Both the position numbers and the translations under genes were made by a program. This document shows, in pieces, positions 642 to 46,330 of a stretch of 47,931 nucleotides of DNA. The stretch comes from Bacteroidaceae bacterium (lineage in GTDB: Bacteria > Bacteroidota > Bacteroidia > Bacteroidales > Bacteroidaceae): contig JAFZPZ010000042.1 of the NCBI GenBank assembly GCA_017552435.1, forward strand, positions 1 through 47,931. Direction: 5' to 3'. Position 1 is the first letter of the stretch; each line of letters opens with the position of its first letter. Under the pieces are notes generated by a model. The model had not been told where the DNA came from. It made no database searches and saw only the letters and a list, made by a program, of their open reading frames with translations.

Positions 642-1838
642 TTATTGGAACAGGATAGTGAAGCGTGTGAGGTGGTCTTCGGGGTCGGTGAGGAGGCTGA
701 AGGTGCAATGGTGGGCGGTCAGGATGTCGCGAATGAGCAGCAGCCCTATTCCCTGACCTTTAGGCTTCGTGGAGAAGAAGGGAGTGAAGAGGTTCTGGGC
801 TACGTCGGGAGATATGCCGCGTCCGTTGTCCGTGATACAGACCCCCCAGCCCCCTTTAGGGGGAGTTTCTATCCATATCGTCTTAGGCTCAGCTTCAATA
901 CTATTCTTGACAATGTTGATGAGCACCTGCTGGAAGAGGACGGTATCCAGATGAACGGGAATAGCCTCTTCTGTGAGTTGGAAGTTCAGACGAACACCTG
1001 CACGGGTGCACAGATTCTCCAGGAAGGGACGGCAGGCTTCCACCTCTTCGCTGAGGTCGCATAGCTGAAGCTGTGGCTGCGGGATCTTCACCACATTGGC
1101 AAATCGGGTGACGAATTCGGAAAGCGCCAGCAGACGGTGTGCCTCGTCCTCGGGCACTTTATTGACTATCCCCGCCACGCTATTGTTCACCTCGTGGGCT
1201 ATCATGCGGATGACACGCTCGTATGCGGCTTTCTCTGCAAGACGGACTTCCGACGTCAGCGATTCGATGAGGAAGAAAGGATGCCTGTAGCCTCTGTCGG
1301 GGAAGGACTGATGGCTGATGCGGAAAAGCTTGGCTTCACCCGGGATGCGGACGGTGGTTGTTTCACCCAGCGGCAAGGAGCGCATGGCTTCCTCTATGGT
1401 GGGAGAGAGTATCTGACGGGCAGCAGAGTTCATAGAGGTAATGTTACCGTCTATGTCGCATTGCACGATACCCATAGGCGAGGCTTCTATCAGAAGACTG
1501 AGGAAGGTATATTGTTCCTCCAAAGTGATGTGCTCGCTGCGCAGACGGTTCAGCAGGTCGTTGAAGGTGCGCACAATGACGTCTGTCTCATGCTGTCCCG
1601 ACGGGGCGAGCCTTGTTGTCAAATCCAGCTCCCGCACCAGTTCCATGCCTCCGATAAGTGTATCGTAGGGGCGTATGGTCTTATGGTAGAAGAGCCAGAG
1701 GTAAAGCGCCATCAGTACAACGCTTGCCTCCGTGATGTAGAACAGCGTCGGATGGCTGTGGAACGTGGCGTAGAGCGTTACTGCCATCAGTGCCACTATG
1801 CCCAGCGCGAGCAGAAAAAAGTAATACTTAAGTTTCAA
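642..1838 (-). CDS. NtrY-like sensor histidine kinase
   Basis: 398-residue membrane kinase. Two membrane segments (about 5-25 and 33-52), a HAMP-like stretch (53-105), a PAS-like domain (about 110-195), the phospho-acceptor box RMIAHEVNNS with His215, the N box around 308-316 (NIVKNSIEA), the G1 box DNGRGI (337-342), and the F/G2 region FTPFFSTKPKGQGIGL. It probably phosphorylates the adjacent sigma-54 response regulator. Two oddities. The stretch from the His box to the conserved VVKIPQPQLQ is only about 35 residues, so the dimerisation helices look shortened. TPPKGGWG (325-332), in the loop before the G1 box, is encoded by a palindromic repeat. The start is a TTG at 1838 inside a 7-bp tandem repeat; no ATG is available after the upstream stop. 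It follows the regulator by 23 bp, so the two are co-transcribed. Confidence 0.9.
   Translation of the reverse strand: MKLKYYFFLLALGIVALMAVTLYATFHSHPTLFYITEASVVLMALYLWLFYHKTIRPYDTLIGGMELVRELDLTTRLAPSGQHETDVIVRTFNDLLNRLRSEHITLEEQYTFLSLLIEASPMGIVQCDIDGNITSMNSAARQILSPTIEEAMRSLPLGETTTVRIPGEAKLFRISHQSFPDRGYRHPFFLIESLTSEVRLAEKAAYERVIRMIAHEVNNSVAGIVNKVPEDEAHRLLALSEFVTRFANVVKIPQPQLQLCDLSEEVEACRPFLENLCTRAGVRLNFQLTEEAIPVHLDTVLFQQVLINIVKNSIEAEPKTIWIETPPKGGWGVCITDNGRGISPDVAQNLFTPFFSTKPKGQGIGLLLIRDILTAHHCTFSLLTDPEDHLTRFTILFQ
839..865 (-). repeat. Palindromic repeat inside the kinase gene
   Basis: Tail of the GACCC type followed by a CCCCCTTTAGGGGG hairpin. It is translated in frame as TPPKGGWG within the ATP-binding domain of the histidine kinase. 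Single unit, no inverted partner nearby. Confidence 0.8.
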
Positions 1839-5917: not shown

Positions 5918-7273
5918 TCACTTTTTCACTTTTAGTTTCTCTTTCCCTTTGTACTTACTCATGTCGTTGACCACGACTTGTTCGCCTAATTCCAGTCCGC
6001 TTAGTACCTCTATGTAGTCATAGTTGCATTCACCCAGCTTGACCACGCGCGGCACAAGCAGGTTCCCCTCCTTGTCATTTTGAATTTTGAATTTTGAATT
6101 TTGAATTACAAATAAGGTATAGTCGCCGGGGCCACTGTAGAACGAGCCGTTCTTGATGCGGAGCACGTCGTCCTTGATGCTGGTGATGACAAAGACCTCT
6201 GCCCTGAGGCCGGAACGCAGACGCGGATGGCTCATATTGTCGGGCAAGGCGGTGAAGGTGATGGCTCCGCTCTGGCTGAGGGGTGTAACGGTATTGATGA
6301 TGCCCGTCAGACGTTCCTTGCCAATCTTCAGGATGACTGCACCGCCCACACGGACGCGCTCGCTATGACTGTCGGAAATCTCGCATTCGGCCTTGAAATG
6401 GCTGAGGTCGCTCACCACGGCTATCTTCTGCCCTGCGCTCACGGTGCTGCCTATGTCTGTGTTGATGTAGGTCAGCGTGGCACGTCTTGGCGAGCGTATC
6501 TTGGCATCGTCCAGGGTGCGGCGTTTCTCGCTCAGACCTTTCTCGAAGATGCTGTTCTGCAGCTGCTGCATCCGCAGGTCGGCCTGCTTTACCTTCTGCT
6601 CGTTGGCATACTGCTGGCGCAGTTGGTTCAGATGCAGTTGTGCCGTCTTCAGGGCAGTTTCTGCCTGCCGCACACGGTCGCGGGTGCCGGAGCCGAGGCT
6701 GTCCAAGTAGAGCTCGTTGCGGAGCTGGGCTTCCAGTCCGGCCAGCTTCATCTCCTCCACCTCTATCTGCATCTTGCGGTCGGAGAGTTGCGTCTCGGTA
6801 TTGGCTTTCAGTTGCGCCATCTGCTGACGCTTGATCTCGAGTTCGTCGAGAGCCTTGGCATAGTCCGTCTCTGCCGATTGCAGGTCTAACCGCAAGAGTG
6901 GCGTGCCTACATCCACGCTGTCGCCGCTGTGGGCATAGACCTCCAGTATTTGCGAACTGATGGGCGAGACGATGATTTCCTCAAAGGCCGGCACGATGCG
7001 TCCCGTAGCCGAGACACTCACATCGATGGTGCCCCTATCGACCTCGGAGATGATGAGCGACTTCCGTTCCACCGTTGTCATCATCTGTGTGCCGAGCCAT
7101 GCGGCTATGCCCAGTACGGCCAGGAAGCCGCCTGCCCACATTCCAGCTTTCTTTAGTTTGCGTTTGCGTTGTACACTGACAGGAATCTGTCTGTCCATAG
7201 CGGACCCTCCCCCTATCCCCTCCCTTGTAGGGCGGGGAGCAGATGGTTCTTGATTTATTACTTTCTTATCCAT
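5918..7273 (-). CDS. HlyD/MacA-type periplasmic adaptor (membrane fusion protein)
   Basis: 451 residues. A cytoplasmic N-terminal segment, one membrane helix (about 41-62), a split lipoyl domain around a coiled coil (about 140-240, rich in Gln/Leu/Arg), and beta-barrel plus membrane-proximal domains after it. It should connect the inner-membrane permeases with the TolC-type channel encoded just upstream. Residues 12-24 (SAPRPTREGIGGG) come from a palindromic repeat, and residues 389-399 (around NSKFKIQN) from an ATTTTGA tandem array in the membrane-proximal domain. The same peptide occurs in the response regulator. Because the unit is 7 bp, a change in copy number would shift the frame. The start at 7273 lies between the two units of an inverted repeat pair. 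Confidence 0.9.
   Translation of the reverse strand: MDKKVINQEPSAPRPTREGIGGGSAMDRQIPVSVQRKRKLKKAGMWAGGFLAVLGIAAWLGTQMMTTVERKSLIISEVDRGTIDVSVSATGRIVPAFEEIIVSPISSQILEVYAHSGDSVDVGTPLLRLDLQSAETDYAKALDELEIKRQQMAQLKANTETQLSDRKMQIEVEEMKLAGLEAQLRNELYLDSLGSGTRDRVRQAETALKTAQLHLNQLRQQYANEQKVKQADLRMQQLQNSIFEKGLSEKRRTLDDAKIRSPRRATLTYINTDIGSTVSAGQKIAVVSDLSHFKAECEISDSHSERVRVGGAVILKIGKERLTGIINTVTPLSQSGAITFTALPDNMSHPRLRSGLRAEVFVITSIKDDVLRIKNGSFYSGPGDYTLFVIQNSKFKIQNDKEGNLLVPRVVKLGECNYDYIEVLSGLELGEQVVVNDMSKYKGKEKLKVKK
6077..6107. repeat. ATTTTGA tandem repeat inside the adaptor gene
   Basis: About 4.4 copies of ATTTTGA, translated as part of the adaptor protein. Same heptamer as the arrays at 2884 and 47488. 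Confidence 0.9.
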
Positions 7274-7331
7274 ATTATATCTATTTATCTAAACAGTCTC
7301 CCTCCCTACAAGGGAGGGTCGGGGTGGGTCC
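7202..7331. repeat. Inverted pair of palindromic repeats around the adaptor start
   Basis: Units at 7202-7239 (inside the adaptor N-terminus) and 7299-7331 (gap between TolC and adaptor), in opposite orientation. Both have GGACCC tails and the same CCCTTGTAGGG hairpin core. The adaptor start codon lies between them. Confidence 0.82.
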
Positions 7332-7332
7332 C

Positions 7333-8928
7333 TTACTTTACTAACTTCTCTATGTCTGCTGTGATGTCACATCCTTTCTCGAAGTCCCAGAGGGCGATGC
7401 TGCGCAACTGGTAGTAGTAATACCAATACGAATGGAGCTGCGATATGCGATTCTGCCTTGCTTCGTCCTTGGCCCTGGTTGCGTCGGAGATGTCCAGCAT
7501 AGAGATACTTCCTATCTTAAAGGTCTCTATGTTTGTATTGTAACGCTTCTGGGCGATGGTGTCGGCTTCGCAGGCGATGCGCAGCTGTTCTGCCTGATTG
7601 TTGAACTGTTCCGTCAGGATGAAGATGTTCTGCCGGAACTCCTGTGCCTGCTGGCGGAGCTGCCCCTGCACAATCTCGCGGTTGCTCTCTGCCACCTTTC
7701 GCTGCCCCTTGCGCTTGCCCCAGTCCAGGATAGGTATGGAGAAGCCCACCTGTATTACCTCCTTGCTCAGCAGGTCGCGATAGGCACCGCCCAGCTTGTC
7801 TGCCATACCCGTATAACCCATCTGGGCATACAGGTTGATGCTGCGGCGGTTGGCCTTGGCAGAGGCTACACTGTAGTCTGCCTCCATCTGGCGGCGGCGC
7901 ATGGTGGTGGCAAAAGCATTGTTCTGGAGGGCGTGGCTGAGCACCTCCTCATAGTCGAGGTGAAGAGGCAGACCCACCCCCTGCCCCTCCCTTAAAGGGA
8001 GGGAGTCCTCCCCCTTTAAGGGGGAGTTAGAGAGGGTCTGGACCTCTGGCACTATTGGTTCAATCTCGGCCTCCACATCCAGGAAGGCACGCAGGGCAAA
8101 CTGGCGGGCCTGCCGGTTGCTCTCGCTGTCGGTCAGGGCGCTGTGGGCGTTCAGCACGTCTAATTTCAGTTGCAACACATCATTCTCGCTGATGGTACCC
8201 ATCTCCCGCTTGGCCTGTGCCACTTTATAGAGTTCCTCGGCCTTCTGCAGGTTCTGGCTGGCTATGCCCACCTGCTCGCCTGCCAGTATCAGGTTGAAGA
8301 AAAGGCTGATGGCCTTCATTGCCACCTGTTCCGTCTCGGTAAGGAAACGAGCCTGTGCCTCGCGGTATTTCAACGGCTCTATACGGCGGTTCCACTTCAG
8401 ATGGTTGATGCCGAAGATGGGCTGCGAGAGGGTCAGGGCTACAGGCATCGACATGAACTGATTGCCCCCGCCATTGCCCGACTGATGCAGGAAGTCCAGC
8501 GATGTCTCTACGGACAGCGTGCCGCCCGTTGGCCATATCTTCTGGCTGACATAGAGCGAGCCGTTCAAGCCTAAGTAGTCGTTGCGCACGTATGACACGC
8601 CGCCGTCGGCCTGCTGGTAGCTGGTGTAGCGTTTGTTGTAGCTGGGTGCTGTGGCAGAGAAGGATATCTCCGGCAACAGGTCGGCCTTATAGCTCCGCCA
8701 TTGCCAGTAGGCGGACTTCAACTCGCCCAAATCCACCGCCGCATCCACGCTCTGACTCCTGGCCATAGCAATACATTCGTCCAGGGACAAGCGAAGGGTC
8801 GGACCCTCCCCCATCCCCTCCCTTGTAGGGCGGGGAGTAGATTGCAAAGGAAGCGTGCAGACAAGCAGAAGTATCATTATTATCCCCGCCCTACAAGGGA
8901 GGGTTAGGGAGGGTCCTCTTTTATTCAT
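7333..8928 (-). CDS. TolC-family outer membrane efflux channel
   Basis: 531 residues from ATG 8928, which overlaps the upstream permease stop by 8 bp; an ATG at 8940 is also possible. It carries an N-terminal signal sequence and two long alpha-helical repeats of the outer-membrane efflux protein type (DECIAMARSQS near the start; QAEQLRIACEAD and NIETFKIGSISMLDISDA near the end, typical of the second repeat). It forms the outer-membrane exit of the exporter. Repeat DNA shapes it in three places: residues 5-15 of the signal sequence (GPSLTLPCRAG), residues 31-43 just after it (TPRPTREGMGEGP), and residues 297-320 (NSPLKGEDSLPLREGQG), which lie in the loop between the two halves. Confidence 0.88.
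   Translation of the reverse strand: MNKRGPSLTLPCRAGIIMILLLVCTLPLQSTPRPTREGMGEGPTLRLSLDECIAMARSQSVDAAVDLGELKSAYWQWRSYKADLLPEISFSATAPSYNKRYTSYQQADGGVSYVRNDYLGLNGSLYVSQKIWPTGGTLSVETSLDFLHQSGNGGGNQFMSMPVALTLSQPIFGINHLKWNRRIEPLKYREAQARFLTETEQVAMKAISLFFNLILAGEQVGIASQNLQKAEELYKVAQAKREMGTISENDVLQLKLDVLNAHSALTDSESNRQARQFALRAFLDVEAEIEPIVPEVQTLSNSPLKGEDSLPLREGQGVGLPLHLDYEEVLSHALQNNAFATTMRRRQMEADYSVASAKANRRSINLYAQMGYTGMADKLGGAYRDLLSKEVIQVGFSIPILDWGKRKGQRKVAESNREIVQGQLRQQAQEFRQNIFILTEQFNNQAEQLRIACEADTIAQKRYNTNIETFKIGSISMLDISDATRAKDEARQNRISQLHSYWYYYYQLRSIALWDFEKGCDITADIEKLVK
7970..8039. repeat. Back-to-back inverted pair of palindromic repeats in the TolC gene
   Basis: Units at 7970-8005 and 8006-8039 abut head to head; both have AGACC tails and a CCCTTAAAGGG-type core. 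The right unit is almost identical to the right unit of the pair in cca (24533-24564). Translated in frame. Confidence 0.85.
8801..8916. repeat. Inverted pair of palindromic repeats around the TolC signal sequence
   Basis: Units at 8801-8837 and 8884-8916, opposite orientation, both with GGACCC tails and CCCTTGTAGGG cores. The hydrophobic signal-peptide core of the TolC protein is encoded between them. Confidence 0.83.
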
Positions 8929-13729: not shown

Positions 13730-15121
13730 CTATCTCTTTTCCATCATTGATTCTACAATTTGTTTTCTCAGGCTCCACCATGCAGGCACCACGGTGGCCA
13801 ACATATTAAGCAGAATTATAGCTGCAAAGGCTCCGACGAAGAGTGTGGGGGCGAAGAGCATTTCGCCCTCCACGATGGGAGCCGTGGCGAGCGTGCTGTT
13901 GTCGAAGAACATGCCGAGAATTTCCCTGCGCAACGCGTAGATGGCCGTCCATGCAAGAGCAAGGCCGATGAGTCCGCCGATGGTGGTCTGCACAAGGTTT
14001 TCTATTACCACTTGGTTTAGCAGCGTGCTTCGTCGTGCTCCGAAGGTCTTGCGCACGGCCATCTCTGCGCTGCGCCGCTCCATGCGTCCGGCAACGATGC
14101 CGCAGAGGTTCAGCGCAGGCACGAAGAGCAGCACGAACAGGATGCCTGCATAGTGGCGCACGAGTTCCCATACAGAGAGTTCACCGAACACACCGGCACG
14201 GTTCTCTGTTTGCAACACATGCATCGGGTGCGTCTCTAAGTTCCGGGTCAGCACCATCTTCGATTTCACACCCTCACCGAAGCCGAAGTGTGGCAATTTC
14301 TCGGGATGCGATTGCTGTAGCCGTGCCGCCAACTCGTCCAATTCCTGCTTCAGTGCTTGCAGTTGCTCATTGTCGCGCACGGTGGCTACAATGGAATACA
14401 TGCCTTGATATTCAGCATCGAAAGAAATCAGAGAGTAGGGGGTGATGATGTCGGCATAGCTGTCGGGTGTGAGCTGGCTGGCACTACGCACCATGCCCAC
14501 CACACGCACGTCCCCACGGTTCTCAATCTCCACCATACGCCCTACGGCCTTTTTGCCTTTGCCGAAATAACGCTCGGCAAAAGCATCACTGATGACGCAG
14601 ACCTCCTCGCGTCCCTCAACCTCCTTACTTGTGAAAGGGCGCCCCTCGAGGAAGTCGTACTCATAAATCTTGAAGTAGTCGGCGCTTACCTCGTTGGGAG
14701 TGACCTCGAGGAAGTCGTCCTTGCCACGCACGGCACAAGCACGGCTGCGGCCCAGCAGCTTCCCCGTTCCTGCTGCCAGCAGTGTGGGTGAGCAGTACTC
14801 GATGTTCTTACTCTTCTGGAACCAATCCTCAAAGGCCTTGCCGCTGAAACTCGTCATTCCCATGCCGTGGTTCTCGGCCTCAATACGGATACCCTCAAAA
14901 TAGATTGTCCTTGGGCGGTTCACCTCTGGATAGATAGGTGCGAGCTTGATGTAATAAACCACCGCCATCACCATCGTGAAGGCAATTGCCATTGCCGTTC
15001 CCGTTATGTGTATCGCAGAGAACAGCTTTTCCTCCCGCATCATGGCGAGAGCTTGTTTAAGAGACCCCCCAACCCCCTTTAGGGGGAGGAGGGATGATGT
15101 TATGGATGTTTGTTTTTCCAT
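13730..15121 (-). CDS. MacB/FtsX-type ABC permease, first member of pair 1, first gene of the export operon
   Basis: 463 residues. After a repeat-derived N-terminus (about residues 11-20, LLPLKGVGGS) the protein reads KQALAMMREEKLFSA, as in the permease at 4616, whose N-terminus is simply MGYI. N-terminal helix (about 38-60), periplasmic domain, three C-terminal helices with coupling motif EMAVRKTFGARRSTLL. It is the first gene downstream of the sigma-54 promoter at 15196-15211, so expression of the whole leftward operon probably begins here. The start ATG at 15121 lies between two inverted palindromic units. Confidence 0.87.
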   Translation of the reverse strand: MEKQTSITSSLLPLKGVGGSLKQALAMMREEKLFSAIHITGTAMAIAFTMVMAVVYYIKLAPIYPEVNRPRTIYFEGIRIEAENHGMGMTSFSGKAFEDWFQKSKNIEYCSPTLLAAGTGKLLGRSRACAVRGKDDFLEVTPNEVSADYFKIYEYDFLEGRPFTSKEVEGREEVCVISDAFAERYFGKGKKAVGRMVEIENRGDVRVVGMVRSASQLTPDSYADIITPYSLISFDAEYQGMYSIVATVRDNEQLQALKQELDELAARLQQSHPEKLPHFGFGEGVKSKMVLTRNLETHPMHVLQTENRAGVFGELSVWELVRHYAGILFVLLFVPALNLCGIVAGRMERRSAEMAVRKTFGARRSTLLNQVVIENLVQTTIGGLIGLALAWTAIYALRREILGMFFDNSTLATAPIVEGEMLFAPTLFVGAFAAIILLNMLATVVPAWWSLRKQIVESMMEKR

Positions 15122-15184
15122 GCTGTATTTGTTTTAATTATTTATTTCATTCTTATTATTCACCCTAAAGGGGGCTAGGGGGTC
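15062..15184. repeat. Inverted pair of palindromic repeats around the operon start
   Basis: Units at 15062-15087 (inside the permease N-terminus) and 15163-15184 (in the leader), opposite orientation, with GACCCC tails and matching CCCTTTAGGG cores. The second unit lies at or just after the predicted sigma-54 transcription start, so it would be in the 5' leader of the mRNA. Confidence 0.83.
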
Positions 15185-15195
15185 GTCTATATATT

Positions 15196-22466: not shown

Positions 22467-23887
22467 TTTCTCATTCTTGCTACGGGAATGCCCATCTGTT
22501 CGCGATACTTGGCTATGGTGCGGCGGGCGATATTAAAGCCGTCTGCATGAAGCATCTGTGCCAGGCGTTCGTCACTGAGTGGCTGGGCTTTGTCTTCTTG
22601 TTCTATATAGCGTCGCAGGGCAGCCATAACCTGGCGTGCTGTGACATCATCGCCCTCATCGCTCTGTGCAGCCCGATGCGTGAAGAACCATTTCAGCGGA
22701 TAGGTGCCAAAGGAGGTCTCGACATATTTGCTGTTCGAAACACGGCTGATGGTACTGATGTCATACCCTGTCGCAGTAGCTACATCTTCGAGTCTCATTG
22801 GTCGCAGCAGAGTTTCGTCGCCTTCCTGGAAGAATGGCTTTTGGAGGGTGACAATCGCTTGCATGGTGCGCATCATTGTTTCCGAGCGTTGCTTGAGGGC
22901 GTTGATGAACATCTGTCCGCGTTCCACATATTGACGAACGAAGGCGTTTTGCTCTCCTTCGGCATCGGGACTGATGATGAGCGAGGGCTGGTTTCCACGA
23001 CTCAGGGTAACGGTTATGGTGCCATTCTCGTCGGTATCGACAAGGAAATCGGGCTGGATGCTCTGTGCTCTGTCGGCACTCTTGGCACCGAGTGTACCGC
23101 CAGGCCTGGGATTGAGTTTCAGTATCTCCCTTTGCAGCTGTTCGATTTGTGCCTGATTGATGTGGAGGCGTTGCTGCAACCGTTGCCAACGTTTGTGTAT
23201 GAAGTCATCGAAATACTTACTCAACATCTTGATGAGCAGTTCGCGGCAGGGGTTCTTCTCGTCGCGCTGAACCTGTATGAGCAGGCATTCCTGCAGCGAG
23301 CGTGCTCCGATGCCTGGCGGGTCGAACTGCCACAGCACTTTCAGGACGCGCTCCAACTCCTCGGCATTGGTGTTGAGACCCTGGTAGATTTCCGCCTCGT
23401 CGGCGAGTATCGTAAGTGATTTCTTGAGCAGTCCGTCCTCGTCGAGCGACCCAATGAGGTACTCCATGAGTTCCTTCTCGTGGTCGGTGAGGTCGAAGTC
23501 GGCCATTTGCTCCCTCAGACGATCTGTGAGCGAGAGCGTATCGTCATAGGACATGAATTCGGCAGCATTGTTGCTGTGGCTGGCACCGGTCAGGAAGTCG
23601 GGCATATCCTCCTCCGAGCGGTAATCGTAAGTGGCATCATCAAGCCTCTCCTCATCCCTCTCCAAAGGAGAGGATGTCCCTTCTCCGTTCTCTCCTCCTT
23701 CGGAGGGGTCGGGAGAGGCTTCGAGCCAGGGATTCTCCATGCATTCAAGTTCCACACGATGCTGCAGAGCTTCGACAGGCATCTCCGTCAGACGTACCAG
23801 CATGACCTGCTGCGGCAACATTTGCTGTACTTGCACTTGTTGCTGTGTCTGCGTCTGTTCTTGTATCTGTATGTTCCTCTGGCTCAT
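22463..23887 (-). CDS. rpoN: RNA polymerase sigma-54 factor
   Basis: 474 residues. Region I is Gln-rich (1-50; QTQTQQQVQVQQMLPQQ...), followed by acidic region II, the core-binding domain, and the C-terminal DNA-binding part with the RpoN box ARRTIAKYREQ near 455-465. It directs transcription from -24/-12 promoters with NtrC-type activators, one of which, with a matching promoter, lies in this window. Residues 56-82 (DPSEGGENGEGTSSPLERDE) are encoded by an inverted pair of palindromic repeats in the variable region II, where extra sequence should be tolerated. Start ATG overlaps the cca stop by 4 bp. Confidence 0.96.
   Translation of the reverse strand: MSQRNIQIQEQTQTQQQVQVQQMLPQQVMLVRLTEMPVEALQHRVELECMENPWLEASPDPSEGGENGEGTSSPLERDEERLDDATYDYRSEEDMPDFLTGASHSNNAAEFMSYDDTLSLTDRLREQMADFDLTDHEKELMEYLIGSLDEDGLLKKSLTILADEAEIYQGLNTNAEELERVLKVLWQFDPPGIGARSLQECLLIQVQRDEKNPCRELLIKMLSKYFDDFIHKRWQRLQQRLHINQAQIEQLQREILKLNPRPGGTLGAKSADRAQSIQPDFLVDTDENGTITVTLSRGNQPSLIISPDAEGEQNAFVRQYVERGQMFINALKQRSETMMRTMQAIVTLQKPFFQEGDETLLRPMRLEDVATATGYDISTISRVSNSKYVETSFGTYPLKWFFTHRAAQSDEGDDVTARQVMAALRRYIEQEDKAQPLSDERLAQMLHADGFNIARRTIAKYREQMGIPVARMRK
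23643..23720. repeat. Inverted pair of palindromic repeats in rpoN
   Basis: Units at 23643-23674 and 23691-23720, opposite orientation, AGCCTC tails outward, CTCC(A/G)AAGGAG-type cores. The right unit on the minus strand is very close to the terminal repeat of the DUF559 element at 35685. Translated in frame. Confidence 0.85.
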
Positions 23888-25443
23888 GTTTTGGATACTG
23901 GTTTGAGACCCATTTCTGCCGCTTTCCCCAGCATGAACTGGAAGGCTGCATCGTGGTCGTTCGGGATGACCGAGTCCCAGATGGCATCTTTGACGGCCTG
24001 CTTCAGAATGCCTATCTTATAACAGGGCTTCAGGTCGAAGGTTTCCATGATTTCTTCGCCTGTTATGGGGTTGTGCCAAGTGCGGTAGTTGTCGCGGGCC
24101 TGGAGGTCGATGAGTTTCTCGCGGACGAGTTGGAAGTTCTGCAGGAAGCGTTGTTTCTTCTCGCGGTTTTTGCTCGTGATGTCTGCCTCGCAAAGGCGCA
24201 TCAGGTCGTCGATATCCTCACCTGCCTCGAAGAGCAGACGGCGCACAGCACTATCGGTTACTTCATCGTCGGCAATAGCGATGGGACGCATGTGTAGCCC
24301 TACCAACTTCTGGACGTATGCCATGCGTTCGTCTAGCGGGAGCTTCATCCGACGAAAGAGTGGCGCCACCATCTTCTGCCCGATGTAGTTGTGATTGTGA
24401 AAAGTCCAACCGGTCAAATTGTCCCATCGTTTGCTGCGTGGCTTTCCAATATCGTGCAGAAGGGCAGCCCAACGAAGCCAAAGAGACCCTTCCCAACCTC
24501 CCCTTAAAGGGGAGGCTTTTTGTCCTGTGTTCTCCCCCTTTAAGGGGGAGTTAGAGAGGGTCTGGCTTGCCACATTATCCAGCACCTCGAGGGTATGGTA
24601 AAAGTTATCTTTATGGGCGCGACCATTGCGTGTCTCTACGCCTTCCAGTGCGGCTACCTCGGGCAAAATGAGAGCGAGCAATCCGCTACGGCTCAGTTCA
24701 ATGAAGCCGATACTGGGAACAGGCGCCATCATAATCTTGTTCAGTTCATCGATAATGCGTTCCTGCGATATAATCTTGATGCGCTCTGCATTTCGCTGTA
24801 GTGCTTTCTGAGTCTCGTCCTCTATATTGAAATTGAGTTGTGTTGCAAAACGAATGCAACGCAACATGCGCAACGGGTCGTCGCTGAAAGTAATGTCGGG
24901 ATCTAGCGGAGTGGCAATAATGCCGTCCTCCAGATCAAGCAGACCCTCGAAGAGGTCGATGAGTTCGCCATATCGGTTTTCATTGAGACATACAGCCAAC
25001 GCATTGATGGTGAAATCGCGGCGGTGCAGATCGTCATCGAGTGTGCCCTCCTCTACAATCGGCTTACGACTTTCGCGATGATAACTCTCCTTTCGTGCTC
25101 CCACAAATTCCACCTCCTGGTCATGCCATTTGAGTTGTGCAGTGCCAAAGTTGCGGAAAATACTGACATGAGCACCGCGTCCCAGGTCCTTAGCCAATGC
25201 GTTTGCCAATTGGATGCCGGCCCCATCGCCAATCACTACCACATCAATATCCTTCGATGGACGTTCCAGGATGATGTCGCGTACATAGCCGCCTACTACA
25301 TAACACTCCAACCCCAAGGCATCAGCGGTTTTGCCAATGCGGTGCAGGATTCCCTGACCCTGTGGAGAATCAAAGGGAGATGCCGTCTGCCGTGTTCGCT
25401 GACGGAAGTTGTCGTATTCCTGTATGGCGTCCTGTATGGTCAT
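23884..25443 (-). CDS. cca: CCA tRNA nucleotidyltransferase / poly(A) polymerase family with HD domain
   Basis: 519 residues. Class II nucleotidyltransferase head with GGYVRDIILERPSKDIDVVV (about 51-70; metal-binding DxD at the end), the RRDFTINAL motif, neck domain, then an HD phosphohydrolase-like domain with LLHDIGKPRSKRWDN. It adds or repairs CCA at tRNA 3' ends; the tRNA-Lys in this window lacks an encoded CCA, in keeping with a need for it. Residues 294-320 (NSPLKGENTGQKASPLRGGW) come from an inverted pair of palindromic repeats just before LWLRWAALLHDIGK, where homologues I recall have only a short loop. Confidence 0.92.
   Translation of the reverse strand: MTIQDAIQEYDNFRQRTRQTASPFDSPQGQGILHRIGKTADALGLECYVVGGYVRDIILERPSKDIDVVVIGDGAGIQLANALAKDLGRGAHVSIFRNFGTAQLKWHDQEVEFVGARKESYHRESRKPIVEEGTLDDDLHRRDFTINALAVCLNENRYGELIDLFEGLLDLEDGIIATPLDPDITFSDDPLRMLRCIRFATQLNFNIEDETQKALQRNAERIKIISQERIIDELNKIMMAPVPSIGFIELSRSGLLALILPEVAALEGVETRNGRAHKDNFYHTLEVLDNVASQTLSNSPLKGENTGQKASPLRGGWEGSLWLRWAALLHDIGKPRSKRWDNLTGWTFHNHNYIGQKMVAPLFRRMKLPLDERMAYVQKLVGLHMRPIAIADDEVTDSAVRRLLFEAGEDIDDLMRLCEADITSKNREKKQRFLQNFQLVREKLIDLQARDNYRTWHNPITGEEIMETFDLKPCYKIGILKQAVKDAIWDSVIPNDHDAAFQFMLGKAAEMGLKPVSKT
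24483..24564. repeat. Inverted pair of palindromic repeats in cca
   Basis: Units at 24483-24516 and 24533-24564, opposite orientation, AGACCC tails outward, matching CCCTTAAAGGG cores, only 16 bp apart. Translated in frame. Confidence 0.87.
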
Positions 25444-30930: not shown

Positions 30931-30977
30931 ACAATTTACTATTTATTTAATTCCCCCTAAAGGGGGACAGGGGGTCT
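30931..30977. repeat. 7-bp tandem repeat joined to a palindromic repeat at the tsaB end
   Basis: A TTTACTA/TTTATTT heptamer-like tract (30931-30950) runs into a palindromic unit (30953-30977; CCCCCTAAAGGGGG core, GGGGGTCT tail). The palindromic unit encodes the last residues and stop of TsaB. Confidence 0.75.
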
Positions 30978-31647
30978 TTGCTACGTATTCCTTCAGGTAG
31001 AAGGGCTCAAAGTAGGCCACATCCTGTTTCTCTCCGAGGTGCAAAGCACGTTCGGCCAGGGGGAACATCCATTTCGCCAGCGGTACGATGCCTTCTATGA
31101 AATGGGCATTGGGATGTTGGATGACGCTTTTGCACTTTGTGGAGCCGTCTCCGAAGAAATAGACGGGATGCTCTTCGAGGTAAGGCAGATAGGTGTCGGC
31201 ATCCACGATATCGGCTCCGATGGGACGAACCTCGTGAAGAGCGCGGTCATAGACGGCACTATAGACCTCCATCCTTCGGGCGTCTATCATCGGAACGAGC
31301 AGAGCCTCCTCTGGAAGCTGTTCTTTGCCAAGCAGCACAGGCACGCACAGCAGTTTCAGCGTCGGTACGCTCAAAAGCGGCAGATCGCGTCCGTAGCAGA
31401 CACCTTTTGCCAGCGAGACACCGATGCGCAAACCTGTATAGCTGCCGGGACCTTCGCTCACTGCCACCGCATCAACGGGGATAGCGTGGGAGTTGGCAAA
31501 GGACAGGGCTTCATCCACAAAGACACCGCAGACGACGGCATGGTTCGGTCCCTCCAGATCTTCCTTATGGAAGATGAGGCTGCCATTCTCGCTCAGAGCC
31601 ACGGAACAAGCCTTTGTACTCGTCTCAATATGTAGGATACAACTCAT
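30943..31647 (-). CDS. tsaB: tRNA threonylcarbamoyladenosine biosynthesis protein TsaB
   Basis: 234 residues. Actin-like ASKHA fold with ILHIETSTKACSVALSENG at the start, GPGSYTGLRIGVSLAKG (the TsaB signature) near 67-83, and PMIDARRMEVYSAVYD. It acts with TsaC, TsaD and TsaE to form t6A37 in ANN-decoding tRNAs. The last residues (TPCPPLGGIK) are encoded by a palindromic repeat, so the native C-terminus has been replaced or extended. First gene of the long leftward operon, downstream of the promoter at 31709-31716. Confidence 0.94.
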   Translation of the reverse strand: MSCILHIETSTKACSVALSENGSLIFHKEDLEGPNHAVVCGVFVDEALSFANSHAIPVDAVAVSEGPGSYTGLRIGVSLAKGVCYGRDLPLLSVPTLKLLCVPVLLGKEQLPEEALLVPMIDARRMEVYSAVYDRALHEVRPIGADIVDADTYLPYLEEHPVYFFGDGSTKCKSVIQHPNAHFIEGIVPLAKWMFPLAERALHLGEKQDVAYFEPFYLKEYVAKTPCPPLGGIK

Positions 31648-31693: not shown

Positions 31694-31708
31694 ATATATT
31701 TCGCGCTG

Positions 31709-31716
31709 CAAAGGTA
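31709..31716 (-). promoter_or_regulatory. -7 box for the tsaB-murA-rseP-rpoN operon
   Basis: TACCTTTG on the minus strand followed by CAGCGC, the typical Bacteroidetes TAccTTTGCA form, 62 bp upstream of tsaB. The -33 position falls in a 7-bp tandem array and shows no clear TTTG. Confidence 0.55.
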
Positions 31717-31725
31717 CGAAAAAAA

Positions 31726-31840
31726 AGTGAAGAGTGAAGAATGAAGAATGAAGAATTTGCTGCCGCCCTCGAAAAAACGAAAGGAAGTAGGTTCCTCCGG
31801 CTTTCTAAAATTCTTCACTCTTCACTTTTCACTCTTCACT
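31726..31840. repeat. Inverted arms of a 7-bp tandem repeat (AGTGAAG type)
   Basis: 31726-31756 carries AGTGAAG/AATGAAG heptamers; 31810-31840 is its reverse complement at 28 of 31 positions, 53 bp away. The right arm encodes the C-terminus (GVKSEK) and stop of the D,D-carboxypeptidase. The transcript could fold into a long hairpin and act as a terminator or stabiliser. Confidence 0.8.
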
Positions 31841-32757
31841 CCGAGGGCTTTCATCACGTTGAAACCATAATCGAGGAGGATTGCCGTCTCTTTGAATCTG
31901 GATGCCCTGTTGCGGCTGCCCAGAAGTACGAGGTAGAGGGTTGTTCCATCGCGTGTGGCGGCAGATGCCAGGCAGCCAGCAGCCTGGCGGGTATAGCCTG
32001 TCTTGATGCCTATACAGCCCTCGTAGGAGGAGAGCAACAGATTGGTGTTGTAGCAAGGCAAGTGACGTCCGTCAATCAACGGGATGTCTGCTTCCTCTGT
32101 TCCCACAATCTCCGCGAAGACGCTGTCGCACATGCAGTACCGCGCCAACCTGATGAGGTCGCTTGCGCTACTATAGTTGCTGTCGTTCGGCATTCCGTTG
32201 GGGTTGGCGAAGTGCGTGCTGTCCATCCCCAGATACTGAGCTTTCTGGTTCATCATGTCATAGAAAATCAGGGTGTCGCCTCCTATGTGTTTGGCTATGG
32301 AGTATGCTGCATCGTTGTCGCTCACCAGCATCATTTCATAGATGAGGTCGCCCAATTGATAACTGTCGCCAGACCTTACAATAGCGTCCTTGGTGACACA
32401 GTCTTCGGTGGTAATGAGCAGGGTGTCGTCCATGTTTCCGTTCTCAATAGCCAGCAGACAACTCATCATCTTTGTGATGGAAGCAATGAAGCGCTTCTTG
32501 TCAGCATTTTTCTGACTAATGATAAACCCTGTTGAGTCATCGACAAGCATCCACGCCTCCGCCGTAAGGTTTGCGAGAAGGTCATAGCCCTCAACAGAAT
32601 CGAGCTGCACAAAGTCTTGCAGAGTGGAATCTATCCGGGCAATCTTCTGCAGCCGCAGCTGCTCTGGGGTAAGTTGGGGTTCTCCGCTTCCGCAAGCAAA
32701 GCAGCACAAAAGCAGCAGAAACATCCCGCAAGTCAAAAATGAAATCGTCTTTTTCAT
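31822..32757 (-). CDS. D-alanyl-D-alanine carboxypeptidase lipoprotein (PBP5-like, S11)
   Basis: 311 residues from ATG 32757, which gives a lipoprotein signal (MKKTISFLTCGMFLLLLCC, then FAC lipobox); the longer frame upstream would pass through the promoter. All three active-site motifs of S11 peptidases are present: SITK (SxxK), SDN (SxN in VSDNDAAYSIAKHIGG) and KTG (GIKTGYTRQAAGCLAS). It trims peptidoglycan pentapeptides in the periplasm. It lacks the long C-terminal domain of E. coli PBP5. The C-terminal residues come from a 7-bp tandem repeat arm. Confidence 0.92.
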   Translation of the reverse strand: MKKTISFLTCGMFLLLLCCFACGSGEPQLTPEQLRLQKIARIDSTLQDFVQLDSVEGYDLLANLTAEAWMLVDDSTGFIISQKNADKKRFIASITKMMSCLLAIENGNMDDTLLITTEDCVTKDAIVRSGDSYQLGDLIYEMMLVSDNDAAYSIAKHIGGDTLIFYDMMNQKAQYLGMDSTHFANPNGMPNDSNYSSASDLIRLARYCMCDSVFAEIVGTEEADIPLIDGRHLPCYNTNLLLSSYEGCIGIKTGYTRQAAGCLASAATRDGTTLYLVLLGSRNRASRFKETAILLDYGFNVMKALGVKSEK

Positions 32758-33189
32758 GCTGCAAAGGTACGAAAAAAAATCATACTTCACAATTCTTTGC
32801 TCCAAAGAGTCCAGGAATCGCGCTTTCTGTATAAAGTTCCTTAGTCCTAGGGACAAAACAACTTACTTCTGGGTATAAAAGTCCGTAATACGGCAGATAA
32901 AACTTTTTTCAAAGTTTGGAAATATATTTTCACGGTTTGAAAATCTATTTTCACACTTTGGAAATAGATTTTCTCAGTTTGAAAATAATTTTAGAACCCG
33001 TATAAATATATTTTTCTCCCTGTATCTCGGCTTTTTGTTCCCCGTATCCCGACTTTTTGTTCCCGAGTAGTTGGAGGATCTGTCCCTAAAGTTGTTTTTT
33101 TCGCGGATTTAAGAATAATTAACACGTTTTACCTTTACATTTCGGCAGTTCAAACGTTATATATAATAAAAGGTATAACTATAACGAAA
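32758..33189. other. 432-bp gene-free region with direct repeats
   Basis: Left end: minus-strand promoter TACCTTTGC (32769-32761) for the carboxypeptidase. Middle: about four imperfect 21-bp direct repeats (roughly 32910-32993) built on TTTGGAAAT and ATTTTCA. Right: two 21-bp near-copies at 33022-33042 and 33044-33064, starting GTATC and ending TTTTTGTTCCC. Right end: TACCTTTA at 33130-33137 may be the -7 box for the gene at 33190. No coding frame of note. Confidence 0.65.
32762..32769 (-). promoter_or_regulatory. -7 box for the D,D-carboxypeptidase gene
   Basis: TACCTTTG followed by CAGCATG on the minus strand; a TTG lies 20 bp further upstream. The start codon follows so closely that the transcript would have little or no leader. 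Confidence 0.5.
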
Positions 33190-34750: not shown

Positions 34751-34782
34751 TTTGGTGTTCTCGGAAACAAAGTGTAATTTTG
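34751..34782 (+). promoter_or_regulatory. Promoter for yicC
   Basis: TTTG (34751-34754), 20 bp, TAATTTTG (34775-34782), then CAGC; predicted leader about 15 nt. Good Bacteroidetes match. Confidence 0.62.
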
Positions 34783-34803
34783 CAGCAAAATTGTTCTGCA
34801 ATT

Positions 34804-35682
34804 ATGATATTGTCGATGACTGGATACGGCAAAGCCTCGGCCGAATTCCAGGGAAAGAAGATTACAGCAGAGGTAAAATCGCTTAACAGTAAGGCACTCG
34901 ACCTTTCTACGCGTGTGGCGCCCATCTATCGGGAAAAGGAGATGGAGGTACGCGCTATGATAACTCAGAGTCTGGAACGTGGTAAAGTGGAATTCAGCCT
35001 TTGGATAGAGCAACTGGAACAAGTGGATGCCTGTCCTATCAATGGTGAATTGGCAGCTGCGTACTATCGTCAGATGCTGGATATTTCAAACAAATATGAT
35101 ATTCCCGAACCAGACGACTATTGGCATACGATAATCCGTATGCCCGATGTCCTTTCGCGAAATGAGATGTCTCAGGAACTTTCTGAAGATGAGTGGATTG
35201 TGGCACGAGGAGTGGTACAGCAATCCATCGACCAGCTTATCGCTTTCCGCCGTCAGGAGGGAGAAGCGTTGCAGCATAAGTTTGAAGAGAAACTGGATAA
35301 TATCGCTACTTTGCTTGCCAGTATCGAGCCTTACGAGAAACTCCGCGTTGAAAAGATTCGTCAGCGCATCATAGAAGGATTGGCTGCCATTCCCGATGCA
35401 CAATACGATAAGAATCGCCTGGAGCAGGAGATGATTTACTACATCGAGAAGCTTGACATCAATGAGGAGAAGCAGCGCCTTGCCAACCATCTGCAGTATT
35501 TCCGCAAGACGATGGAAGAGGGACACGGACAGGGCAAAAAGCTCGGTTTCATCGCTCAGGAGATGGGTCGCGAAATCAACACGACAGGCAGCAAAAGCAA
35601 CCTTGCCGAGATGCAGAACATCGTGGTGAAGATGAAGGACGAGTTGGAGCAAATAAAGGAACAAGTATTAAATGTGATGTAA
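34804..35682 (+). CDS. yicC: YicC/YloC-family endoribonuclease
   Basis: 292 residues from ATG 34804 (MILSMTGYGKA is the family start; a TTG upstream at 34780 falls in the promoter). YicC-like N-terminal domain to about 155, DUF1732 C-terminal domain ending in HGQGKKLGFIAQEMGREINT and TGSKSNLAEMQNIVVKMKDE, the conserved family end. Members are reported to be endoribonucleases and are usually encoded just before gmk. Here the gmk partner is still downstream but separated from it by an inserted DUF559 element that begins 2 bp after the yicC stop. Confidence 0.93.
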   Translation: MILSMTGYGKASAEFQGKKITAEVKSLNSKALDLSTRVAPIYREKEMEVRAMITQSLERGKVEFSLWIEQLEQVDACPINGELAAAYYRQMLDISNKYDIPEPDDYWHTIIRMPDVLSRNEMSQELSEDEWIVARGVVQQSIDQLIAFRRQEGEALQHKFEEKLDNIATLLASIEPYEKLRVEKIRQRIIEGLAAIPDAQYDKNRLEQEMIYYIEKLDINEEKQRLANHLQYFRKTMEEGHGQGKKLGFIAQEMGREINTTGSKSNLAEMQNIVVKMKDELEQIKEQVLNVM

Positions 35683-35684
35683 GG

Positions 35685-35713
35685 AGCCTCCCCCGACCCC
35701 TCCAAAGGAGGGG
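35685..35713. repeat. Left terminal repeat of the DUF559 element
   Basis: AGCCTC tail followed by CCCCTCC-AAA-GGAGGGG hairpin. Starts 2 bp after the yicC stop. Confidence 0.85.
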
Positions 35714-35742
35714 GGAACGTAGGATGCTCAAATACGGATAAA

Positions 35743-36723
35743 GTGAAGCGAGGATACGAAACAGCAAACTGTGCGGCTTATGATTTGTTGCGTCAGTTCT
35801 CGCAAGAGAATCGCAAAAAACCTACCGAAGCAGAGAGTATATTGTGGAGTGCCCTGCGAGCTTCTCAGTGTGGAGTACGATTTAGAAGACAACATATTAT
35901 AGGTGACTATATTGCAGACTTTGTATGTTTGTCGCGGAAACTGATTATCGAAGTAGATGGAGCATACCACAACAGGGCTGCACAAATGATTTCAGATGAG
36001 CAACGAACCGAAGACTTGAAACGACTTGGCTTTAGGGTTCTGCGATTACAAAATGAAGAAATAATAGCAAATATCGATAAAGTTGTGGATAAAATAGAAA
36101 AGGAAATCAATTTAGAACCGTTCACCCCTCCTTTGGAGGGGACGGGGGAGGCTGGACGTTTGTTAATCGTATCAGCTCCTTCGGGGAGCGGGAAGAGCAC
36201 TATCGTTCATTACTTGATGGATGAGCATCCTGAGTTTCGTCTGGCTTTTAGCGTGAGTGCTACCAACAGGCCACCAAGAGGTCAGGAACAGGATGGTGTA
36301 GATTACTATTTCCTCTCTGAAGAAGACTTCCGTCGTCACATCGAGGCTGGCGATTTTCTGGAATATGAGGAGGTCTATGAAGGTCGCTTCTATGGAACCC
36401 TCAAAAGTCAGGTGGAGGAGAAACTGGCTGCCGGCAAGAATGTTGTGTTCGACGTGGATGTCAAGGGAGGCATCAATATCAAACATTACTATGGTGACAA
36501 GGCTCTAAGTATCTTCATTCAGCCCCCTTCTTTGGAAGTGTTGCGAGAGCGTCTGATAGGCAGAGCGACCGATGAAATGGGACAAATTGAACAACGTCTG
36601 GCAAAAGCAGAATATGAAATGTCGTTCGCTCCGCAGTTCGATCGCATCCTCATCAACGACGATCTTGAGACAGCCAAACAAGAGGCTGTAGCGCTGCTGA
36701 ACGAGTTTTTGAGGACCCCCTAA
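35743..36723 (+). CDS. gmk: DUF559 endonuclease-like domain fused to guanylate kinase
   Basis: 326 residues from GTG 35743, the first usable start after the in-frame yicC stop. Residues about 12-118 are a DUF559 domain (PD-(D/E)xK fold related to Vsr): PTEAESILWSALR, FRRQHIIGDYIADFVC, KLIIEVDGAYH with E70, D72 and H76, and GFRVLRLQNEEI, so the likely catalytic residues are kept. Residues 125-138 (PFTPPLEGTGEAG) are encoded by the right terminal repeat. Residues 139-326 are a complete guanylate kinase: P-loop SAPSGSGKS, GMP-binding region SVSATNRPPRGQEQDGVDY and YEEVYEGRFYGTLK. No ATG is available at the kinase boundary, only a TTG near 36160. This enzyme is normally essential, so it is made as the fusion or from the TTG. 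The last residues (LRTP) come from another palindromic unit. Confidence 0.9.
   Translation: MKRGYETANCAAYDLLRQFSQENRKKPTEAESILWSALRASQCGVRFRRQHIIGDYIADFVCLSRKLIIEVDGAYHNRAAQMISDEQRTEDLKRLGFRVLRLQNEEIIANIDKVVDKIEKEINLEPFTPPLEGTGEAGRLLIVSAPSGSGKSTIVHYLMDEHPEFRLAFSVSATNRPPRGQEQDGVDYYFLSEEDFRRHIEAGDFLEYEEVYEGRFYGTLKSQVEEKLAAGKNVVFDVDVKGGINIKHYYGDKALSIFIQPPSLEVLRERLIGRATDEMGQIEQRLAKAEYEMSFAPQFDRILINDDLETAKQEAVALLNEFLRTP
36125..36153. repeat. Right terminal repeat of the DUF559 element
   Basis: Inverted copy of 35685-35713 with one mismatch; translated in frame as the linker into guanylate kinase. Confidence 0.85.
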
Positions 36724-36772
36724 CCCCCATTAAGGGGGAATAATGTTCAATGTTCAATGTTCAATGTTCAAT
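36713..36772. repeat. Palindromic repeat joined to 7-bp tandem repeat between gmk and nadD
   Basis: Palindromic unit 36713-36740 (GGACCCCC tail, CCCCCATTAAGGGGG core) holds the gmk stop. It is followed by four ATGTTCA heptamers (36743-36772) that provide the nadD start codon. Confidence 0.85.
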
Positions 36773-42477: not shown

Positions 42478-42518
42478 GGACCCTCTCCCTAACCCTCTCC
42501 CATATAAGGGCGAGGGAA
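42478..42518. repeat. Palindromic repeat upstream of fumarase
   Basis: GGACCCTC tail with CCTCTCCCATATAAGGGCGAGGG hairpin between the fumarase start and hflX. Being 6 bp from the start codon it lies in the fumarase leader and could influence translation. Confidence 0.7.
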
Positions 42519-43890: not shown

Positions 43891-43954
43891 CACAATTTAC
43901 AATTTGACAATTTACAATTTACCATTTATTCCCCCTAAAGGGGGTTAGGGGGTC
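43891..43954. repeat. 7-bp tandem repeat joined to a palindromic repeat
   Basis: ACAATTT-type heptamers (43891-43928) run into a palindromic unit (43931-43954; CCCCCTAAAGGGGG core, GGGGGTCC tail) immediately before the stop of the lipoprotein gene. Same arrangement as at 30931-30977. Confidence 0.85.
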
Positions 43955-43955
43955 C

Positions 43956-44807
43956 TTACTTTACTTGTACTACAAGGTATTTGCTGACGCTCCAGAACTT
44001 TTGGGGGTCAGTGATGTGGATTTCATACAAGCCCTGCTTGTCCTTCGCCAACTGGTAAGAGCCGGCGGGATGCGTGGAGAGCAGCTGGGCACTCTTGCTG
44101 TAGAACTTAAGGTCCTTGTCGTAACGAATATCAATCTTCGTGAAGTAGTCCTTGTTGAAGTCTCCACTCTTGAGGACATCGCCCTTCGTCAGGATCTTCT
44201 GTTCTTTCAGTTCGCTCTTTGTGCCAAAGACGAACCAAGCCGTGTTCAGCTCTTTATCTTGAGCCTGCACCTTTTCTGCTTTGGCGCGATTGTCTTCGGT
44301 CAGAGCAGCCACATCGTTACTGAGTCCGGCGATGGCATCACCCTGTGCCTCAATGAGAGCATCCTTTTCTGCCAGGCTTGCCTCAAGTTCCTGGATGCGA
44401 GCTGCTTGAACATCAATTTGGGCTTGCAGGTTCTCGATGGTCTTCTGCATCTTGGTTCCCTTGATACTGCTGTTCTTGAGTTTCTCTTGCAGCTGGGCAA
44501 TCATTTCGCGATTCTGCTGCATAGCCTGTTGGATGAACTCCATGTTTTCGCGAATCACGTCACGACTGCTGGCACTTTCGGGACTACCGTCTGCAATCGT
44601 CACACGGCCTTCTGCTTCGTTGATGCGGCGAATGCCTTCCTGCACCTCGTTGAAGGTGCCCAGAATGTCATCCAATTCCATATCTTTCTCGTTGATAATG
44701 CGTTGCAAGGAGTCTCGTTCCTGCTGAGCAGCGTCCGATTTCCCGCCTGTCAGGTTGCAAGCACCCAAACTCAGGGCACAAGCTACCATAAAAAGAATCT
44801 TTTTCAT
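43956..44807 (-). CDS. Coiled-coil lipoprotein of unknown function
   Basis: 283 residues. Lipoprotein signal MKKILFMVACALSLGACNLT (lipobox LGAC, Cys17). Residues about 30-185 are a long coiled coil (EKLKNSSIKGTKMQKTIENL and EASLAEKDALIEAQGDAIAG regions). A compact C-terminal domain follows (NTAWFVFGTKSELKEQKIL, then SAQLLSTHPAGSYQLAKD). Related lipoproteins occur widely in Bacteroidetes, but I know of no assigned role; a periplasmic spacer or envelope-linking function is possible. The gene is flanked on both sides by 7-bp repeats. Confidence 0.75.
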   Translation of the reverse strand: MKKILFMVACALSLGACNLTGGKSDAAQQERDSLQRIINEKDMELDDILGTFNEVQEGIRRINEAEGRVTIADGSPESASSRDVIRENMEFIQQAMQQNREMIAQLQEKLKNSSIKGTKMQKTIENLQAQIDVQAARIQELEASLAEKDALIEAQGDAIAGLSNDVAALTEDNRAKAEKVQAQDKELNTAWFVFGTKSELKEQKILTKGDVLKSGDFNKDYFTKIDIRYDKDLKFYSKSAQLLSTHPAGSYQLAKDKQGLYEIHITDPQKFWSVSKYLVVQVK

Positions 44808-45721: not shown

Positions 45722-46330
45722 ATGAAAGATGTGGGTTCAAGCAATGGCGAGATGATGCGTCGTGGCCGTGTGGAAGTCGTGTGCGGCTCTATGTTTTCCG
45801 GTAAGACGGAGGAACTCATCCGCCGACTCCGCCGTGCTCAGTTTGCTAAGCAACGCGTGGAAATATTCAAGCCCGCCATCGATGTTCGCTACAGCGAAGA
45901 AGAAGTGGTGAGTCACGAGGGCAACAGCATCCTATCTACGCCTGTCGATTCTTCTGCCAGCATCTTACTCCTGGGGCAGGAAAGCGATGTAGTGGGCATT
46001 GACGAGGCACAATTCTTCGACGAACATATCGTGGAGGTATGCAACGAATTGGCTGCCAAGGGTATCCGCGTCATTGTGGCAGGCCTCGACCTCGACTTCA
46101 AGGGACAGCCTTTTGGCCCGATGCCTCAACTCTGCGCCATTGCCGACGATGTGACAAAAGTGCATGCTATCTGCGTCCGTTGCGGTGCTCTTGCCTATGT
46201 TAGCCACCGTATCGTAGCAGGCGAGAAGCAGGTGATGCTTGGCGAGAAGCACGAGTATGAACCCCTTTGTCGGGAATGCTATGCAAAAGCCTCAACCCAG
46301 CCCTTTCCAAAGGAGAGGGAGAGTAAATAG
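45722..46330 (+). CDS. tdk: Thymidine kinase
   Basis: 202 residues, type II (TK1-like). P-loop [28 protein letters not shown] (Walker B/lasso), [15 protein letters not shown], and four zinc Cys in CVRCG and CREC. It salvages thymidine. The C-terminal residues ([11 protein letters not shown]) are encoded by a palindromic repeat unit (46288-46322), followed at once by a 7-bp array, so the native C-terminus was replaced or extended. Confidence 0.95.

Follow-up and report, generated by a model that had tools for sequence, protein, structure and literature searches.

A DUF559 Nuclease Gene Bounded by Inverted Hairpin Repeats: A Candidate REPtron-Like Mobile Element in a Bacteroidaceae Bacterium

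Results and Discussion

A Nuclease Gene between yicC and gmk

The DNA analyzed in this study, termed the window throughout, is a stretch of 47,931 nucleotides from a Bacteroidaceae bacterium. At the locus of interest, yicC (34780..35682, forward strand) ends with its stop codon 2 nt before a left repeat arm (35685..35719, +), which is followed by the coding part of a DUF559 nuclease gene (35743..36117, +), a right arm (36119..36153, −) and the coding part of gmk, encoding guanylate kinase (36154..36723, +). An earlier note on this DNA had described inverted ends of 29 bp around the block 35685-36153. The ends were confirmed and proved to be longer, as the right arm is an inverted copy of the left one over 35 nt with 94% complementarity. 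From the outside inwards, the left arm is composed of the C-rich tag AGCCTCCCCC, a 2-nt linker, the hairpin CCCCTCC-AAA-GGAGGGG and an inner tail; it matches the arms of locus L025. Each arm follows this order, with pyrimidines on the 5' side of its hairpin and purines on the 3' side, and closes with a short tail.

The nuclease part, the right arm and gmk constitute one open frame of 326 aa (35743..36723, +), for which GTG is the likely start codon. PF04480 (DUF559) matches residues 17-122 of this frame with an E-value of 7e-33, and the frame continues without a stop into a guanylate kinase domain (PF00625, E 5.3e-43), the right arm forming a translated in-frame linker between the two. gmk is devoid of an ATG where relatives have one; the element has taken the place of the usual gmk start. 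Guanylate kinase is probably produced either fused to DUF559 or by initiation at a start close by.

The nuclease part is of the Vsr-like PD-(D/E)XK / EDxHD type, with conserved D59, E70, D72 and H76. The domain call of the earlier note and the three residues it had singled out stood up to comparison: E70 and H76 show no variation across alignments of 38 and 34 sequences, in which D72 is at least 90% conserved. The DUF559 profile matches the PDB entries 3hrl (E 2.8e-33) and 3r3p (E 1.3e-7), the latter a mobile-intron protein and presumably I-Bth0305I. A homing endonuclease model of PADLOC also matches (E 1e-7), and the cut-offs of the Vsr families are missed (TIGR00632, 21.7 bits versus 97.85; Pfam Vsr, 12.6 versus 27). 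The structure model has a mean pLDDT of 83.6. DUF559 is under purifying selection, with dN/dS of 0.04-0.25 where dS is unsaturated and pN/pS of 0.11-0.20 otherwise. In a 2022 paper, a DUF559 gene is placed in the EDxHD homing family (PMC9403480). In Caulobacter, the DUF559 protein VsrA is reported to cause an SOS response in cells lacking a cytosine methyltransferase (PMC12907096). DUF559 proteins can thus have cellular roles.

Repeats Dispersed in the Window

The ends of the block had been ascribed to the same family as about two dozen units elsewhere in the window. This holds for both arms and for the 18 dispersed units scored, a part of the claimed total: each of them matches an arm of a DUF559 element of another genome with a score of 34-70, while 139 control windows reach 25 at most.

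Several of these units form inverted pairs. In the pair 7202..7332 (7202-7244 and 7296-7332), the unit 7202-7244 contributes in frame to the N-terminal region of an HlyD-family ORF. The pairs 7970..8041 and 8801..8917 belong to a single outer membrane efflux (OEP) ORF, in frame in its interior and at its 5' end, respectively. The pair 15060..15186 (15060-15090 and 15155-15186) is of the arm type of L126. Two further pairs are located in frame inside rpoN, encoding sigma-54 (23641..23721, peptide SPDPSEGGENGEGTSSPLER), and inside an ORF of the CCA-adding/poly(A) polymerase type (24482..24565, peptide NSPLKGENTGQKASPLRGGWEG). The pairs in rpoN, the CCA-adding-type gene and the OEP gene carry no DUF559, and those in the first two genes are best read as in-frame, repeat-only derivatives of the DUF559 element. 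Solitary repeats matching DUF559-element arms are found at 839..867 (+), 30947..30980 (−), 43925..43957 (−) and 46287..46322 (+), together with one that overlaps the 3' end of gmk (36711..36742, +) and one that gives the weakest match among those scored, 34 (42478..42518, +).

Only 11 repeats of the window were recovered by a strict detector, which overlooked the arm pair of the DUF559 block. An Rfam search returned one tRNA and no match to any of the repeats. The window contains other repetitive features besides: short tandem AT-rich, heptamer-like repeats of the ATTTTGA and TCAATTA types (1824-1869, 2871-2930, 6077-6122, 47476-47535), 27- and 42-nt tandem repeats that are glycine-rich if translated (40304-40708), and near-identical GCTGCAAAGGTACGAAAAAA elements at 31699-31726 and 32752-32779.

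DUF559 Genes Are Commonly Flanked by Inverted Repeats

The survey of flanks drew on 113 loci (3 from the own genome, 30 from the genus and 80 named); 4 with short flanks were removed, leaving 109, and L004 was dropped as well. Identity or resemblance of named loci to those of the genus suggests a rumen-type Prevotellaceae and, as the phylum, Bacteroidota. At a score of at least 28, inverted flanking repeats occur at 101 of the 109 DUF559 loci and at 3 of 436 same-locus control windows; at a score of at least 40, the numbers are 69/109 and 0/436. Restriction to non-redundant loci gives 97/105 and 66/105 at the two cut-offs. The eight loci below the cut are L016, L033, L081, L083, L087, L099, L107 and L118. 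In the own genome, each of the three full-length DUF559 genes has flanking repeats; the fourth match, which is partial and lies within a very long frame, lacks them. Further genus loci, drawn from multi-copy genomes, are flanked in 32 of 36 cases and unflanked in four (4 of 40 without the motif were left out). A phylum-wide draw, a set without control windows, yielded 19 flanked and 8 unflanked loci among 27 (3 of 30 without the motif were left out). DUF559 genes of relatives thus do carry flanking repeats, as the earlier proposal expected (101/109 and, among the further loci, 32/36).

Flanking arms were detected at none of 30 GIY-YIG genes, a weak control given that these domains mostly lie inside long genes, and at none of 23 gmk genes without DUF559. 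With 3/436 same-locus windows and 0/30 and 0/23 control genes carrying such arms, a mere chance neighbourhood was rejected. The same figures bear on the reading that an ordinary Vsr-like repair gene just happens to lie where repeats are abundant. The Vsr-like fold family, the density of repeats in the window and the chromosomal, unflanked ycjD of E. coli are compatible with it; however, same-locus windows and gene controls are devoid of flanking arms, and the arms match within a locus and track the nuclease lineage (see below), so that we regard an accident as hardly credible.

Of 69 DUF559 frames in the genus, 14 have at least 200 aa. In-frame elements are located inside or next to gmk and, judging from a reading of the sequences, a phosphoglycerate mutase, a sugar reductase, metH and restriction genes. 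In the leuS-like genes of L147 and L150, DUF559 is likewise in frame, with arm scores of 24 and 18, below the cut. In L139 (3001-3470), the right arm is located in frame inside the next gene, which is lipoprotein-like, just after the signal peptide; arms may therefore also insert singly.

Arms Follow the Nuclease Lineage

Arm similarity and protein similarity were compared over 61 loci, 8 of 69 having been removed beforehand because their arms scored under 28, a stop was present or the protein was a duplicate. The correlation is modest (Mantel rho 0.235, with 40 pairs with homologous flanks left out) and was reached by none of 2000 permutations. Among the 66 same-genome pairs alone it is weak (rho 0.20, p 0.10). 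Several DUF559 lineages often share one genome, each with its own arm type. Arms are no more alike within one genome (0.331) than between genomes (0.336, p 0.87), and genome-specific repeats were rejected on this ground.

In the two best-sampled lineages, near-constant arms are combined with a drifting gene. In six pairs of elements at unrelated sites (from L221/L226/L237 and L207/L210/L244), the arms are 95-100% identical, third codon positions 42-52% and spacers 23-76%; in two more distant pairs, arm identity is 83-95%. The hairpin is a general property of the arms: 226 of 239 distinct arms fold at a hairpin score of at least 5, with a median of 8 compared to 3 for shuffled arms. For 62 distinct stems, complementarity is 0.973 with the own partner strand and 0.593 after swapping, the former value being inflated by the choice of stems for best pairing.

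Occupied and Empty Sites

The elements of L221, L226 and L237 are one and the same element of about 500 bp, 75-77% identical, in three genomes and without homology of the flanks. Sites can also be compared in their occupied and empty states. The site of L111, at the start of an argG-like gene, is empty in L101 and L117. That of L012, in the interior of an epimerase-like gene, is empty in five loci, and about 56 bp of native sequence are missing from the occupied version. A Deinococcus paaD/paaZ junction carries the element in L205 and is without it in L286. Visual inspection revealed no target duplication.

At the yicC-gmk junction, relatives without the element have their gmk start within a few bases of the yicC stop. 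Labelling of 31 rows by eye gave 20 empty junctions, 6 with DUF559 (one with a stop), 2 with a remnant and 3 with the tag only. The DUF559 label requires four changes on the host tree, and at least three on its well-supported branches. All six gmk-linked DUF559 proteins included in the comparison fall into a single clade (100/99). Given this single clade, the gmk-linked copy may be an old insertion that was often lost, or else a lineage returning to its site, rather than a recent jump.

These observations are the place to weigh a homing-type explanation, in which DUF559 would be a free-standing homing endonuclease of the EDxHD type. Cleavage would take place at allelic sites or at sites with repeats, and a DUF559-bearing copy would be the template for repair of the gap, with the arms serving as homology; spread would proceed site by site and without transposition. 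The kinship with the mobile-intron protein and with the PADLOC homing model points in this direction, and the single gmk-linked clade with its patchy site occupancy is compatible with allelic spread. So are two sites that hold repeats in one locus and the nuclease gene in another: one junction carries a DUF559 element in L104 but a repeat pair in L126, and at an interior site of aminotransferase-like type, L131 has DUF559 where L144 has only repeats. On the other hand, the same element resides at unrelated sites without flank homology, several empty sites hold no repeat, and near-constant end sequences are not required by allelic homing. We consider homing unlikely, and favor an element that moves together with its ends.

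Repeat Abundance and the RAYT Question

In 247 genomes of the phylum, a hairpin pattern was compared with its reversed control. Its excess is higher where a full DUF559 is present (102 genomes) than where there is none (145 genomes; Mann-Whitney p 1.1e-19, a value that is not that of independent samples, since the genomes are related). Here, a full DUF559 denotes a best E-value below 1e-15, and 36 of the 145 genomes counted as without have a weaker match. The medians of the pattern are 15 and 5 in genomes with and without DUF559, those of the reversed control 2 and 5. DUF559 copy number correlates with repeat excess (rho 0.63). An excess of at least 20 is found in 32/102 genomes with and 4/145 without the gene, so the repeats are not equally abundant in the two groups. 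Counter-cases exist on both sides: the excess is below 10 in 47 of the 102 genomes with full DUF559, and is at least 10 in 18 and at least 15 in 12 of the 145 genomes without, for a hairpin pattern that captures only some repeat families.

In other bacteria, REP repeats are mobilized by RAYT transposases. No RAYT match (PF01797) was obtained in the own genome, the assembly of which is 88% complete; in the genus, 51 of 121 genomes have one at E ≤ 1e-3. Among the best 25 RAYT loci of the genus, 20 show inverted arms scoring at least 28, and their repeats are other than those of DUF559, several with GTAG- or ATAG-like tags. These loci indicate two separate systems in one genus and also serve as a positive control for the method. 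RAYT as the mover of the repeats studied here was rejected on both grounds, the missing PF01797 match in the own genome and the different repeats at the RAYT loci of the genus.

More generally, the repeats might be moved by another enzyme, and DUF559, as a nuclease of repair or defence, might be cargo trapped between two of them. The presence of RAYTs in the genus speaks for this, as does the cellular role reported for VsrA of Caulobacter, a DUF559 protein (PMC12907096). In loci found through DUF559, 85 of 88 facing repeat pairs with a spacing of 300-900 bp contain a DUF559 motif, as scanned with the strict detector that misses the window's own pair; nearly all loci were found in this way, which limits any inference about other cargo. 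Yet in gmk, RAYT and GIY-YIG loci, which were not found through DUF559, 4 of 4 facing pairs in this distance range enclose the motif as well. The RAYT results given above and the tracking of the DUF559 lineage by the arm type also argue against a passenger, which we judge distinctly improbable; the nuclease as a partner of its own repeats is the reading followed below.

Flanked DUF559 Genes in Other Phyla

Flanked DUF559 genes were also found in Cyanobacteriota, Alphaproteobacteria and Deinococcota. DUF559 is matched in 38 plasmid records, and the flanks were examined in 16 of them: 8 are counted as flanked, 1 is borderline and 7 are unflanked, with shuffle controls covering ten loci only. The flanked genes are those of Pseudanabaena (twice), Azospirillum lipoferum, Deinococcus, Sphingomonas, Picosynechococcus, Novosphingobium and Sphingobium, whereof Picosynechococcus is barely above its shuffles. 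L250, at a score of 34, barely exceeds its own shuffles (maximum 33), and L253, which reached 28 within its shuffles, was not counted. The borderline locus is L201 of Synechocystis with a score of 27. Unflanked genes come from E. coli, Thermoactinomyces, one Synechocystis (L246), Sinorhizobium, Methylobacterium, A. brasilense and Photobacterium. In three cyanobacterial plasmids (L201, L250, L287), DUF559 adjoins DUF1156 genes.

On the E. coli chromosome, ycjD (L200) is an unflanked DUF559 gene beside sapF. Of 5426 E. coli genomes, 3321 match the ycjD-sapF stretch over at least 80%. Thirty rows were sampled down this ranking; in 11 of them the match is confined to the sapF side, so ycjD may vary between strains.

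A Candidate Mobile Element and Its Proposed Mode of Spread

Taken together, we regard it as probable that the block is a compact mobile element of about 470 bp resembling a REPtron, in which a DUF559 nuclease gene is bounded by its own cognate hairpin repeats and of which the dispersed repeats are derivatives. Solitary repeats and inverted pairs would be its non-autonomous forms, as are the REPs and REPINs of RAYT elements. The sequence comparisons support the association, the cognate ends and mobility. The earlier suggestion that DUF559 is an analogue of the REP partner with a different fold thus gains support from the flanking, the repeat abundance, the arms tracking the protein lineage and the different repeats of RAYTs; that the protein itself cuts or moves the repeats is what we infer. 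Points that speak against the reading are the absence of a recognised target duplication, the native sequence missing from some occupied sites, the loci and plasmid genes without scoring arms, the counter-cases in repeat excess, the right arm of L139 inside the next gene, the single clade of gmk-linked genes and the weak same-genome correlation.

Mechanistically, the Vsr/EDxHD-type, metal-dependent endonuclease may recognize the tag together with the hairpin and cut adjacent to it, probably in a single-stranded or extruded form. PD-(D/E)XK-type folds hydrolyze DNA and, to our knowledge, are not known to join strands; for this reason, we propose that new copies would arise via host break repair or template switching during replication. 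Cutting plus host repair is the weakest step of the scheme. Since the repeats are free of stops in the frames seen, in-frame copies inside genes or at gene starts would be tolerated.

In its broadest form, the proposal places DUF559 nucleases at the head of a class of mobile elements with hairpin ends, present in at least four bacterial phyla. These elements would spread by hydrolytic cutting at cognate hairpins with subsequent host repair, scatter derivatives made of repeats only and alter host proteins by inserting in frame. The altered proteins would include nuclease-bearing essential enzymes, gmk here and metH- and leuS-like genes in relatives, leuS without scoring arms. To this broad form we give a slightly better than even chance.

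We know of no enzyme that spreads REP-like repeats in genomes without RAYT. DUF559 offers a testable enzyme partner for one large group of such repeats, and the family, still listed as of unknown function, would gain a possible role. If the proposal is true, such elements can lodge in frame inside essential genes.

Comparison with Known Systems

In the open-access literature, we found no description of a link between DUF559 and palindromic repeats; one may exist elsewhere. The text of the RepRanger paper (PMC12306157) has no occurrence of RAYT, endonuclease, Prevotella or DUF.

A classical insertion sequence shares the inverted ends; a DDE or HUH transposase and a recognised target duplication are absent here. 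The palindromic elements of Rickettsia (RPE) are selfish palindromic repeats inserted in frame in coding genes, and we know of no nuclease partner for them. They resemble the in-frame repeats of this study, which differ in having a DUF559-bearing form.

With the EDxHD homing endonucleases represented by 3r3p, the elements share a related catalytic domain and membership in a mobile element. In contrast, DUF559 elements are bounded by hairpin repeats and located at unrelated sites, and no intron or intein was seen. The published description of I-Bth0305I is that of a long, multi-domain dimer (PMC3943268); the DUF559 protein here has about 125 aa.

Vsr, YcjD and the Caulobacter VsrA belong to the same superfamily, and VsrA itself contains DUF559 (PMC12907096). 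They differ in being described as chromosomal repair-type genes, and ycjD of E. coli is without flanking repeats.

The closest parallel is given by the RAYT or TnpA-REP systems. In the literature, REPtrons and REPINs are characterized by a small enzyme gene between inverted cognate palindromes, by co-variation of enzyme and repeats, and by non-autonomous pairs dispersed genome-wide (PMC8266576, PMC3116915; further described in PMC6006769 and PMC3733652). The DUF559 gene is also flanked by inverted cognate palindromes with dispersed copies. The tags differ, being GTAG/CGTC for RAYTs and C-rich, of the AGCCTC/AGACCC type, in the arms read here, which are combined with pyrimidine/purine hairpins. 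The enzymes differ as well: RAYTs are tyrosine HUH proteins (Y1, PF01797) related to IS200/IS605, whereas PF04480 belongs to the PD-(D/E)XK superfamily. If our reading is true, the plan of the REPtron arose with an unrelated enzyme chemistry.
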